Assembly (NCBI GenBank): GCA_963402885.1
Contig: OY727099.1
Location: forward strand, 25,997,001-26,061,000
Source: Antedon bifida
Taxonomy: Eukaryota; Echinodermata; Crinoidea; Comatulida; Antedonidae
Direction of reading: 5' to 3'
DNA: 64,000 bases
The notes under the pieces were generated by a model. The model saw nothing but the letters and a program-made list of their open reading frames with translations, was not told the DNA's origin and did not search any database. Below are positions 46,701 through 49,566 of this stretch, one piece after another; positions within the stretch are counted from its first letter, which is position 1; each line of letters starts with the position of its first letter. Position numbers and translations under genes: made by a program.

Positions 46701-48830
46701 ATTGTAGTGCTATGCTCAAATATGGTAGTGATATGACATCATCATGTCCATAATATATGGGCACATCACATTTTGTTGTCACATAAAATTTGATAGTGTA
46801 GACAGAGCTTAAGAGAGCAGATAGTAGTACCTGCTGCAGAAGGGGTACTACTATAACTATATTAAATCATTAGAGGTGTGATGCTATATTGCATTAATGT
46901 TCTACAGTATGGATGGAAAAAAAGATTTTATTTTGTCTTTCAGAATGCCCATGACAAAGCACAGAAGTACACAACCTTCCTGCAAGTCATGAAGAACTTC
47001 AGACCTGTATTCAGGTACTTTTTTATGGAGAACTTTGTTGACCCAACCTGTTGGTTTGAAAGACGTCTTGCGTATACTAGAAGTGTGGCTACTTCATCCA
47101 TAGGTAAAATACATTTGTGAAAATTAGAAAATGAATTCTGTCACGATTGTTAATACTGTACAAATAGTTGTGTTCTATTTTAAAATTGGCAAAGGCAAAT
47201 TAATATATGGTTACAGTGGCAAAATAGAGATGATAATTAACTAAATTAGAAAAATACCAAGCTCACTATTCCTGTTTTGTCAGGTCCAATGGATGCACAT
47301 TAAAAAGTAGATAGAGTAGTGATATAATTGTTGTATTTTAGATATTTTGTTTTCTTTTTGCCATCTTAGTTGGTTACATTGTTGGCCTTGGTGATAGACA
47401 CGTCCAGAACATTCTGATAGACTGTAACACAGCTGAACTAATTCACATTGACTTAGGTAAGTTGATTTGGTATTGTTATTATAAATTATCTTCATCATCA
47501 TACCCATCCTCTTTGTATCCATCATCATCATGATACGCAATCATTTCCTCAAAACCTCTTTTCTTCTTAGTAATTCTTCTCATCATCATCTTCATTATTG
47601 TTATCATTATTGTCACCAACATCTCTCATAAACATCTGTATTTTTATCTTATTACTCTTGTTTCAGTGTTGTTTTCCCACCGTTCATTTGATGAGTTTAT
47701 AGGTGATTAACACTCTATTTATTTATTATTTATTTTATGTAGGTGTTGCTTTTGAGCAAGGCAAGATTCTGATGACACCAGAAACTGTTCCATTCCGACT
47801 GACAAGAGATATAGAAGATGGAATGGGTGTTGCTGGCGTGGAAGGAGTCTTTAGAAGGTAAATACTCATTGATACAGTCAACTCTCTCAATACTAGACTT
47901 CATTAGGTTGATCCAAAATATCTGGTTTTCTGGAGTGTTTGTTTTAAACACAAAGTCAACTGCGTCTCCATAGTGATTTTTGTACAAACATTACACAAAT
48001 ATGTATATAATTTTTTTAATTTCAGATGTTGTGAAAAAACTATGGAAGTGATGCACAACTCATGTGAAGCTCTTCTCACTATTCTTGAGGTCAGAGTTTA
48101 AAACTTGTAATGTTTACGGCTAAAGGGTTTTTCACACCTGTTCCGGTCCGGCGGTGGAAAATCCAACTGAACGTCAATGTTTTGTTTTCACGTGGCTACG
48201 CAGATATCGATTGGCGCATAGCCGCTTGGAGAGTCATGAAAACGAAACATTGATGTTCGATTCGCCGGACCGAACCCATGCCGGTACAGATGTGAAAGAC
48301 CCTTTAAGGTTTCTAGGATGGAATCTCTATCTTTACTATTTGCATGCATTAGATTATCTATAATAATATTTTGTAAATTGATTGTTTCTCTTGATGTAAA
48401 AGTAATGAAATATTTATATTGCAGGACTGTGCTCAAATTTACTAACATCAATTCAAAAACAATTTTTCAAAATACTAAAATAAAGATAGTATGTTTTAAA
48501 ATGTTGGTTTGTGGCTTTTAGGTGCTACTCTACGATCCGCTGTCTGATTGGACGATATCGTCACTAAAAGCTCGTAATATACAACAAGATCCGGATACAT
48601 CATTGACAGGGACTCTGGATTATAACGACAACGCAAACGTTGAGGGCAGTAGTACCAAAGAGGTTAATAAGATGGCAAAGAGGGTGCTGTTGAGGTTGCG
48701 ACAAAAGCTACAAGGAGAAGAGGACGGCGTAGTGCTTAGCGTTAGTGGACAAGTGAGCAGGTTGATACAAGAGGCTAGAGATGTTAAGAATTTGGCTGGT
48801 TTGTTTCCTGGCTGGCAACCATGGCTTTAA
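19756..48830 (+). CDS. ATM: Serine/threonine kinase ATM (DNA double-strand-break sensor)
   Basis: Fifty-nine exons join in phase to about 2,993 codons, close to the 3,056 of human ATM. ATM is a nuclear PI3K-like protein kinase. MRN recruits it to double-strand breaks, and it phosphorylates SQ/TQ sites in checkpoint and repair proteins. The model has N-terminal helical (HEAT) repeats over exons 1-38, the FAT region over roughly exons 39-50, the kinase over exons 52-58 and a FATC tail in exon 59. Matches run along the length, for example [15 protein letters not shown] [16 protein letters not shown] in exon 30 and GVNLPKI in exon 52. No exon is broken. Introns carry many MITEs, two or more SINEs and a Penelope-like element. 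Three exon edges are tandemly repeated (separate entries). Exon lists follow in three segment entries. Confidence 0.97.
20218..20572. mobile_element. TIR element family B, copy 1
   Basis: Ends TTAAAGATGTATTGTCCC and GGGACAATACATCTTTAA are inverted. It is 355 bp, AT-rich, non-coding and in ATM intron 2. The interior (TGCCATTTTAATGTAACATA) is shared with the copy at about 43223. Confidence 0.9.
20601..20745. mobile_element. Fold-back MITE family A, copy 8
   Basis: The left terminus has lost its first bases (ATGTCTACACTACCAAAC); the right is intact. One CCATATATGG box. ATM intron 2, just after the family B element. Confidence 0.9.
21132..21296. mobile_element. Fold-back MITE family A, copy 9
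   Basis: Near full length, starting AAAACTCTGTCTACACTATC. One CCAAATATGG box. ATM intron 3. Confidence 0.95.
22759..22920. mobile_element. Fold-back MITE family A, copy 10
   Basis: Near full length, with two CCAAATATGG boxes in direct repeat. ATM intron 8. Confidence 0.95.
25219..25329. mobile_element. Fold-back MITE family A, copy 11 (right end lost)
   Basis: Starts AAGCCCTGTCTACACTATCA. The right terminus is missing after CATACTTTTTTGATAAT. One CCATATTTGG box. ATM intron 13. Confidence 0.9.
25843..25915 (+). mobile_element. SINE 3' end with UUCG hairpin
   Basis: GAGGGTCCCTGATGATCAGC, TTCG, GCTGGAT and a closing ACCCTC form a two-part hairpin, followed by an A-rich tail. The same tail ends the SINE near 15319-15400, so this is its 3' part in ATM intron 14. 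Confidence 0.65.
26230..26795. mobile_element. TIR element family B, copy 2
   Basis: Same inverted ends as the copy at 20218, but 566 bp long with extra internal sequence. It has no coding sequence. ATM intron 14. Confidence 0.85.
27265..27345 (-). mobile_element. tRNA-derived SINE head in ATM intron 15
   Basis: On the minus strand it reads GGTGGCACTGTAACCTGG and then, about 35 bp on, GGGTTCAAATCCC. These look like A and B boxes, but no full cloverleaf can be drawn, so it is a SINE head rather than a tRNA gene. Confidence 0.6.
27990..28146. mobile_element. Fold-back MITE family A, copy 12
   Basis: Starts AAAACCCTGTCTACACTATC; both ends visible. One CCAAATATGG box. It lies in ATM intron 17 beside copy 13. 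Confidence 0.95.
28256..28413. mobile_element. Fold-back MITE family A, copy 13
   Basis: Same orientation as copy 12 in the same intron. It has CCAAATATGG and CCATATATGG. Its right end lies 26 bp before the exon 18 acceptor. Confidence 0.95.
29690..29869. mobile_element. pogo/Tigger-like TIR fragment in ATM intron 21
   Basis: Left end CTCTCCCAATACCAGACACC and right end GTCCGGTATTGAGAGAG are inverted. Related ends recur at about 40978-41110 and 47873-47940. The pogo/Tigger assignment is from end similarity only. Confidence 0.5.
29870..29994. mobile_element. Fold-back MITE family A, copy 14 (left end lost)
   Basis: Begins internally at GTGATGTGCCC directly after the pogo-like fragment and ends GATAGTGTAGACAAGGCTTA. 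One CCAAATATGG and one CCATATATGG box. Confidence 0.85.
30715..30880 (+). repeat. 56-bp tandem repeat copying the ATM exon 23 donor
   Basis: Units start at 30715, 30771 and 30827. Each has GGAGTGC(A/G)ATAGTAAGTAG, so the last 11 exon bases and the GTAAGT donor occur three times. The first is the in-phase donor at 30725; the other two lie in intron 23. Confidence 0.95.
31243..31544 (+). repeat. Penelope-like terminal arm, left
   Basis: The inverse of 33147-33448. It contains the short hairpin CGTAAAGCTTACG and part of an open frame on each strand. Confidence 0.9.
31638..33347 (-). CDS. Penelope-like reverse transcriptase with GIY-YIG endonuclease
   Basis: A 569-codon frame. The RT core has [20 protein letters not shown], then [32 protein letters not shown] and the catalytic [17 protein letters not shown] endonuclease follows near residues 510-560 ([19 protein letters not shown], then RIKEHKADV). 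In Penelope elements the RT copies the RNA and the GIY-YIG domain nicks the target. The endonuclease end looks interrupted about once, so this copy is probably not fully functional. The N-terminal 67 residues come from the terminal arm. Confidence 0.9.
   Translation of the reverse strand: MSLCDLDLLPLDFVYGIAPSIDRSGFPKWDCRGLLFSKLLYNFGSSKPPSSLFIVLPCFLIFIDSFIGRATVILNKADYIQKVQGMLNDDKVYQALNHNPTKRYKTQYVKILKRLLDEKKISNKEKATLFPTEEITPRLYCLPKIHKPDVPLRPIVDCINTIYYNLGKKLAEILSPLVGTSCHHVDNSKQLVEELITLDIPENHTFVSFDVVSLFTKTPTEEAIEIVERRLSQDKTLKKRTNMVIRDIIDLLSLVINTTYFSFQEKIYKQIGGIAMGSPISPIVANLYLEDLEEKALKTAPDGMKPTYWKRYVDDILALIPEGSAEHLNSHLNTIDKTGNIKFTTEHMSNNTLPFLDIIITLNNGDLTTTVYRKKTHTDQYLNFHSCHPLEHKLSVVNTLVDRCEKVVTKKDEKLTEMKKIKHALVGCEYPNWSMDKIIQKRSEKGKQNVKQKTKDTTNKNKGNIGIPYIPRISERIRRCLSSYNVNTYFTPQNKLRNLLVHPKDKIKNDDKSGVIYQVNCNNCEKAYIGETARTLSTRIKEHKADVTSHCTIRDPNTFSQKFSFRNCS
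33147..33448 (-). repeat. Penelope-like terminal arm, right
   Basis: The inverse partner of 31243-31544. The first 67 codons of the RT frame lie in this arm, so the biological start may be further in. Confidence 0.9.
34165..34307. mobile_element. Fold-back MITE family A, copy 16
   Basis: Both termini match the family. One CCATATATGG box. It ends about 20 bp before the ATM exon 26 acceptor. Confidence 0.95.
37052..37216. mobile_element. Fold-back MITE family A, copy 17
   Basis: Left terminus altered (AAGCTTTGGCTACTATCTCA), right intact. Two CCATATTTGG boxes. ATM intron 33. Confidence 0.9.
38439..38594. mobile_element. Fold-back MITE family A, copy 18
   Basis: Left AAGCTTTCTCTACACTATCA; the right end is eroded. 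Two CCATATTTGG boxes. ATM intron 37. Confidence 0.9.
40978..41110. mobile_element. pogo/Tigger-like fragment, ATM intron 44
   Basis: The left end CAGTCAACTCTCCCACTACC, then GGACACCCTTGG, resembles the element at 29690. The right end is unclear. Confidence 0.4.
41238..41414. mobile_element. Fold-back MITE family A, copy 19
   Basis: Left AAGCTCTGTCTACAATATCA, right GATAGTGTAGACAGAG. It is diverged, with no exact CArG box. ATM intron 44. Confidence 0.9.
41873..42046. mobile_element. Possible TIR element in ATM intron 45
   Basis: CAATTTACACAGACGAGCGG near the left end and an imperfect inverse (CTGCGTAAATTGACC) at the right enclose non-coding sequence. Confidence 0.45.
42075..42170 (-). mobile_element. 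tRNA-derived SINE head in ATM intron 45
   Basis: On the minus strand it reads TACATTGGTGGTTAACATGC and then GGGTTCGATCC. These are good A- and B-box matches without a tRNA fold. Confidence 0.65.
42830..42954. mobile_element. Fold-back MITE family A, copy 20 (internally short)
   Basis: Both ends present (AAGCCTTGTCTACACTATCA on the left). One CCATATATGG box. It ends 25 bp before the ATM exon 48 acceptor. Confidence 0.95.
43223..43492. mobile_element. TIR element family B, copy 3 (left end lost)
   Basis: The interior and right end (GGGGACAATACATCTTTAA) match the copy at 20218. The left terminus is not found. ATM intron 48. Confidence 0.8.
44158..44500 (+). repeat. 97-103-bp tandem repeat copying the ATM exon 50 end
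   Basis: CACTTG(C/T)AAATGCAAAT starts units at 44158 (coding), 44261, 44358 and 44455. Each unit runs through the exon's last codons (AAAATGTTGAG) and its donor GTTTG. The intronic copies are diverged from the exon and one donor copy has decayed, so this is older than the FATC array. Confidence 0.9.
45440..45818 (-). mobile_element. 5S rRNA-derived SINE (SINE3 class) in ATM intron 52
   Basis: Minus-strand 45697-45818 closely follows 5S rRNA: TACCACGTTGAAACACCGG, TCTCGTCAGATCACC, AAGTTAAGCAACG, GGGCCTGGTTAG, CTTGGATGGGAGACC and CTGGGAATA. The pol III internal control region is recognisable. A non-5S body of about 230 bp and an AATAAA-rich tail at about 45440-45475 follow, as in SINE3 elements. 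The 5S head ends about 19 bp before the exon 53 acceptor. Confidence 0.88.
46010..46136. mobile_element. Small TIR element in ATM intron 53
   Basis: TTTTGGTTCCCATTTGGATG and the inverse TAGGAACCAAAA bound about 125 bp with inner inverted TGATTGGTCAA / TTGACCAATCA sequences. Confidence 0.55.
46624..46811. mobile_element. Fold-back MITE family A, copy 21 (longest)
   Basis: Intact termini and an extra internal unit, 188 bp. CArG boxes are degraded. ATM intron 54. Confidence 0.95.
47490..47640. repeat. ATC/CAT-rich trinucleotide microsatellite
   Basis: Interrupted CAT/ATC repeats in ATM intron 56. No further signal. Confidence 0.7.
48121..48306. mobile_element. TIR element in ATM intron 58
   Basis: TAAAGGGTTTTTCACACCTG and the inverse ACAGATGTGAAAGACCCTTTA match at the ends. 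The interior also pairs (CCGGTCCGGCG with TCGCCGGACCG). It is GC-rich relative to its surroundings. Confidence 0.8.

Positions 48831-49566: not shown

Follow-up and report, generated by a model that had tools for sequence, protein, structure and literature searches.

The window analysed here is a 64,000-nucleotide stretch of the genome of the crinoid Antedon bifida (GenBank assembly GCA_963402885.1, contig OY727099.1, positions 25,997,001 to 26,061,000, forward strand). The mitochondrial contig of the assembly agrees with the echinoderm genetic code: in COX1, AAA stands at two conserved Asn positions and ATA at conserved Ile positions, and ARAGORN assigns tRNA-Lys the anticodon CTT. The window contains the 3′ end of an ATM gene and, at the stop codon of that gene, a tandem array in which the end of the coding sequence is repeated eight times. 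On sequence matches the array-bearing gene is ATM, a member of the PIKK family: its last exon matches residues 2952-3056 of human ATM (PDB match, E 1.7e-24) and ends in a FATC domain (Pfam, E 8.5e-15). A first-pass annotation had placed the end of exon 58 at a codon boundary, and the splice sites bear this out (donor 48090, acceptor 48522, phase 0); the part of the last exon that lies ahead of the first unit, 48522-48731, comprises 70 codons. The features on which the analysis turns are as follows.

48522..48827, plus strand: last ATM coding exon, 102 codons ending in FATC, with TAA at 48828-48830 (from PDB, Pfam and splice phase 0)
48732..48836, plus strand: unit 1, the translated FATC copy, with 32 codons, TAA and ACTTAG, and a private silent base at 48740
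48832..48836, plus strand: first of seven CTTAG fillers; CTTAG is also found within the unit itself, three bases in, at 48735-48739
48837..49466, plus strand: units 2-7, six identical 105-bp units that start with AG|GTG and end with TAA ACT TAG
49467..49566, plus strand: unit 8, the last 100 bp of the array, with a private silent base at 49496, continuing into the presumed original 3′ untranslated region (UTR)
49769..49774, plus strand: first AATAAA after the ATM stop, downstream of the array, and the first AATAAA or ATTAAA there

Tandem Repeats Finder (TRF) delimits the array at 48732-49566, with a period of 105 bp, 8.0 copies, 99% matches and no indels. These values place it among the minisatellites, whose units measure roughly 10 to 100 bp or slightly more and are arranged head-to-tail with high identity. 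About eight 105-bp copies had been reported on first inspection; the array proves to consist of seven full units and a shorter last one of 100 bp. Units 1-7 are each made up of the final 32 ATM codons followed by TAA ACT TAG, whereas unit 8 carries the same number of codons and TAA but only one base more, lacks ACT TAG, and departs from the repeat at unit position 101 (49567). All units share the ATM frame, which meets 15 in-frame stops between 48522 and 49571, and, as had been noted by eye, the copies differ at only two bases, both silent. Units 2-7 are identical. Unit 1 has a private base at unit position 9 (48740; AGC versus AGT, both Ser) and unit 8 has one at unit position 30 (49496; AGA versus AGG, both Arg), so that units 1 and 8 differ at 2 of 100 bases.

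The same five bases, CTTAG, stand at all seven unit junctions. The duplicated gene end is therefore 100 bp only (32 codons, the stop and one base), and the other 5 bp of the period are filler. The acceptor-like TTAG|GTG to which the first-pass annotation drew attention opens every one of the seven downstream units; unit 1 is instead preceded by GCGTA. A DNA search of the 315.6-Mb genome, in which only the best candidates were scored and very common words were skipped, returned no second genomic place for the array, and on this result the idea of a dispersed repeat was rejected.

Translation should end at the TAA of unit 1. Because this unit always supplies a complete FATC and a stop, gain or loss of copies should leave the protein unaltered. 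The extra units probably lie in the 3′ UTR, since the first AATAAA or ATTAAA (49769) is found beyond the array. Folding of the unit RNA was no better than that of shuffled sequences on either strand (z 0.82 and 1.68). In yeast, a single extra terminal glycine costs viability in both Mec1 and Tra1, according to an excerpt of PMC3789791; with the FATC this sensitive to additions, a duplication placed past the stop codon would be a type of change that could be tolerated at such a gene end. Stop-codon readthrough giving FATC concatemers was rejected on account of the two in-frame stops in every full unit (7/7). On the minus strand a frame of 286 codons is open through the array (48711-49568); as an antisense gene it was rejected, being the by-product of one stop-free frame in a repeat whose period is a multiple of three.

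Similar arrays occur elsewhere in the same genome, and one of them lies further upstream in ATM itself.

Reverse-complement 1522-1852 of locus L014 (the locus being C9:11658797-11658874 of the genome, minus strand): array of the TRRAP FATC end and stop codon, decayed, 67 bp x 4.9
Reverse-complement 94-228 of locus L047: end of a mitochondrial-carrier gene, with a stop-spanning 28-bp array of 4.8 copies, 87%
44160..44500 of the window, plus strand: older internal ATM array, about 3.5 copies of an exon end plus donor (TRF 97 bp x 2.6, 90%; alignment with four starts)

A genome search for FATC returned 13 matches, namely the eight array units and five single ones. The locus named TRRAP (by PDB match, E 3e-16) has its FATC end and stop codon repeated downstream, in an array of 67 bp with 4.9 copies and 74% matches (78% by TRF on the other strand). 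Copies 2, 4 and 5 of this array are shorter or frameshifted, copy 3 has an open frame with its last residues changed, and three of its four junctions read AG|GTA. In the 97-bp ATM array the copies after the first sit in an intron (44241-44567) and have diverged; a DNA search of the genome, with the best candidates scored, returned no second place for it. An array at every FATC gene was considered and rejected: among the five readable FATC ends, arrays are present in ATM and TRRAP and absent at ATR and at the genes that we call, by eye, DNA-PKcs-like and SMG1-like. An mTOR-like FATC end falls outside these five, its last codons apparently lying in another exon. ATR carries a 186-bp x 6.8 array (locus L002, 1846-3096) that starts about 250 bp past the stop, runs to the end of the locus and leaves the stop unspanned.

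How unusual such an arrangement is was gauged by aligning the last 97 coding bases and stop of each gene end with up to 700 downstream bases; TRF was run at the stop only on ATM, the FATC loci and L047. Nineteen carrier gene ends were taken, and 17 remained once two whose ends looked doubtful by eye (L041 and L051) had been set aside; L051 had reached z 15.7, but its sequence runs on into an intron that has an array of its own. This second array is a tandem repeat with a period of about 43 bp, running from about position 130 of the reverse complement in an apparent intron of the carrier gene. Stop-spanning arrays were found at 1 of 17 carrier ends, at none of three other gene ends in the window and at 2 of 5 FATC ends, giving 3 of 25 gene ends overall, or 2 of 24 when ATM is set aside; the negatives had z of at most 2.1. 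The sample is small, was chosen after the first case had been seen, and includes some carrier ends that are neighbouring paralogues and hence not independent.

Tandem arrays are common in this genome. TRF found 21 of period at least 25 in 214 kb, a sample that includes the 64-kb window itself, and three of these have at least four copies, two of them in the window and one of those the ATM array. The chance of at least two in 24 gene ends is 0.009, 0.024 or 0.11 at an array coverage of 0.6%, 1.0% or 2.4%, respectively. These figures hint at a bias of arrays towards gene ends.

The ATM array is, with high probability, a young minisatellite that is anchored on the stop codon of the gene and silent at the protein level. 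The founding event would have been one 100-bp tandem duplication with a 5-bp filler, produced by replication slippage or template switching, and later amplification would have proceeded by unequal exchange or further slippage. Amplification of this kind would keep the inner units identical and leave private bases in the edge units. A single founding duplication followed by amplification is suggested by the one junction common to all seven sites, and the founding event need not be old, because units 1 and 8 differ at just 2 of 100 bases. The extra units, which would add about 735 nt to the 3′ UTR, are most likely close to neutral. Of the readings offered by the first-pass annotation, the neutral minisatellite and the 3′ UTR length polymorphism fit best, given the position of the first poly(A) signal past the last unit and the decay of comparable arrays at other gene ends, while its reservoir of alternative terminal exons found no positive support. 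A maintained function is disfavoured by the decay of the copies in the TRRAP, carrier and older 97-bp ATM arrays.

Several observations pull against a young, silent minisatellite. The unit coincides with the FATC domain, its length is a multiple of three, and both differences are silent. In these codons 22% of random changes and 33% of transitions are silent, so that two silent changes would arise by chance with a probability of about 0.05-0.11 (squared by hand); we regard all three features as coincidences that come cheaply, a third of all periods being divisible by three. In addition, the frame of TRRAP copy 3 is still open, though its last residues have changed; the wider of two pyrimidine counts, given below, fails to separate the unit acceptor from the true acceptor of the last exon; and arrays that span a stop may occur more often than the density of arrays would lead one to expect, for which plain neutrality has no explanation.

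Two competing explanations invoke splicing. Ten introns near the end of ATM were located from exon peptides, phase and untrained splice weight matrices, with close alternatives for one intron (acceptor 45031) and for one acceptor choice (46211 or 46193). If splicing led from exon 58 to the AG|GTG at the start of a downstream unit, the units would serve as alternative terminal exons, and the product would be an in-frame ATM that keeps a complete FATC and loses human residues 2951-3024, that is, the last seven residues of the C-lobe and 67 of the 69 residues of the PRD. The phases fit, and the 70 codons that would be skipped match the PRD (2958-3026 in the domain map excerpted from PMC8828054). 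The unit start aligns to human residue 3025, just ahead of the FATC (3027-3056), and TTAGGTGCT of the true acceptor is found again at all seven downstream units. The unit acceptor, however, scores 3.31, below all ten located ATM acceptors (4.18-8.35, values biased upwards because the same matrices were used to pick them) and 0.9 bits under the weakest, and it is equalled or exceeded by 19.6% of the AGs on the plus strand of the window. It has the fewest pyrimidines in the 11 positions adjoining the AG (six at -15 to -5, against 7-9 at the ATM acceptors), although over 21 positions (-25 to -5) its count of 11 ties with that of the true last-exon acceptor, the other nine having 12-18. A stronger acceptor, 48522 (7.43), sits upstream of the units, and copies 2-5 of the TRRAP array lack intact FATC coding. 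The difference between the acceptors is modest and splicing into the units is possible, not predicted; as an account of the array, alternative terminal exons seem to us highly improbable. The other splicing explanation rests on a donor-like motif:

48753..48758, plus strand: donor-like CAA|GTGAGC, a cryptic site that recurs in all units, scoring 8.70 by the untrained matrix and ranking in the top 1.4% of GTs on the plus strand of the window

Here the array would represent nascent introns that arose by tandem duplication, with GT and AG sites within or at the edges of units in use as splice sites; such splicing would either stay silent in the 3′ UTR or start from the CAA|GTGAGC of unit 1. The duplicated segment does carry AG|GT at its junctions (TTAG|GTG, 7/7), as in the model of intron gain by Rogers (excerpt of PMC4974935), and the high donor score counts in favour. 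Joining unit 1 to a downstream AG|GTG would add seven residues (VLSVSGQ) ahead of a complete FATC, in frame. The same weak acceptor (3.31) tells against it, as does length, the shortest such intron being 84 nt against 168-592 nt for the ten measured ATM introns, though longer ones spanning more units could form. We hold nascent introns to be just as improbable as alternative terminal exons.

The remaining alternatives do not depend on splicing. An assembly artefact or copy-number error, with one, two or some other number of copies at the true locus, could account for six perfectly identical units; against it stand the private bases in the edge units, the length of the array (just 835 bp), and the diverged arrays at other gene ends, which are unlikely to be artefacts. 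Five small contigs sized in multiples of 2500 further suggest a curated chromosome-scale assembly, and an error of this kind appears improbable. A reservoir for gene conversion, holding the FATC sequence constant, would agree with the near identity of all units. Unit 1, however, retains its private base and so has not been completely overwritten, which shows nothing more than that; good copies are not maintained in the TRRAP and carrier arrays, whose downstream copies have decayed, and such copies would do damage as conversion donors. We give such a reservoir the smallest probability of the explanations considered. Rather unlikely is a biased process that repeatedly makes stop-anchored arrays at gene ends, these being tolerated as unit 1 closes the protein; their AG|GT junctions would then be raw material for 3′ UTR introns or for an occasional ATM isoform that lacks the autoinhibitory PRD and keeps the FATC.

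Other features of the window lie around the array without forming part of it.

50286..50713, plus strand: 76-bp x 5.7 array, 97%, of unrelated sequence, 0.7 kb past the FATC array
45700-45817, minus strand: match to 5S ribosomal RNA (84.3 bits) in an ATM intron, ending about 20 bp ahead of acceptor 45837
48110-48310: inverted-repeat ends in the last ATM intron, resembling a small DNA element (by eye)
31641-33347, minus strand: long frame upstream of the located ATM exons, reverse transcriptase-like with a GIY-YIG-like end (by eye)
52318-62549, minus strand: NHL-repeat frames downstream of ATM, two of them also with RING and B-box (TRIM-like)

For the 76-bp array, too, a DNA search of the genome with the best candidates scored returned no second place.

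The ATM array illustrates how a repeat may grow at a conserved gene end without touching the protein, the stop codon being in the first unit. Three arrays at 25 gene ends, one of them the ATM array itself, suggest a recurrent and testable class, and the ATM, TRRAP and carrier genes together offer a way to study the frequency of gene-end duplication and the pace at which copies decay, and to learn whether some of them turn into introns or exons. If functional, the array would bear on the control of a master DNA-damage kinase; the present evidence points the opposite way.

Among known systems, minisatellites (variable number tandem repeats) with homogenised inner units come close. The ATM array resembles them in having eight copies of a 105-bp unit that match at 99%, with a uniform interior and variants at the edges, and differs in that its unit is a coding end with a stop, the first copy being translated and the others not. 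Openly licensed papers yielded no account of an ATM FATC array, in a literature search that was far from exhaustive. A close parallel is in the same genome, where the TRRAP array likewise repeats the FATC end and stop downstream, with the translated copy at its left edge; its 67-bp unit, 4.9 copies, 74% matches and changed or frameshifted copies mark it as older and decayed. With the Rogers model, so far as the excerpt of PMC4974935 describes it, the ATM array has in common a tandem duplication of exonic sequence whose junctions all read AG|GT, but it lies past a stop codon and has a weak acceptor. The coding minisatellite of Prdm9 (excerpt of PMC3890296) similarly consists of tandem units with a protein domain at a gene end. 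In Prdm9, however, the stop-bearing repeats come last and copy number changes the protein, whereas in ATM the stop stands in the first unit and copy number should not.

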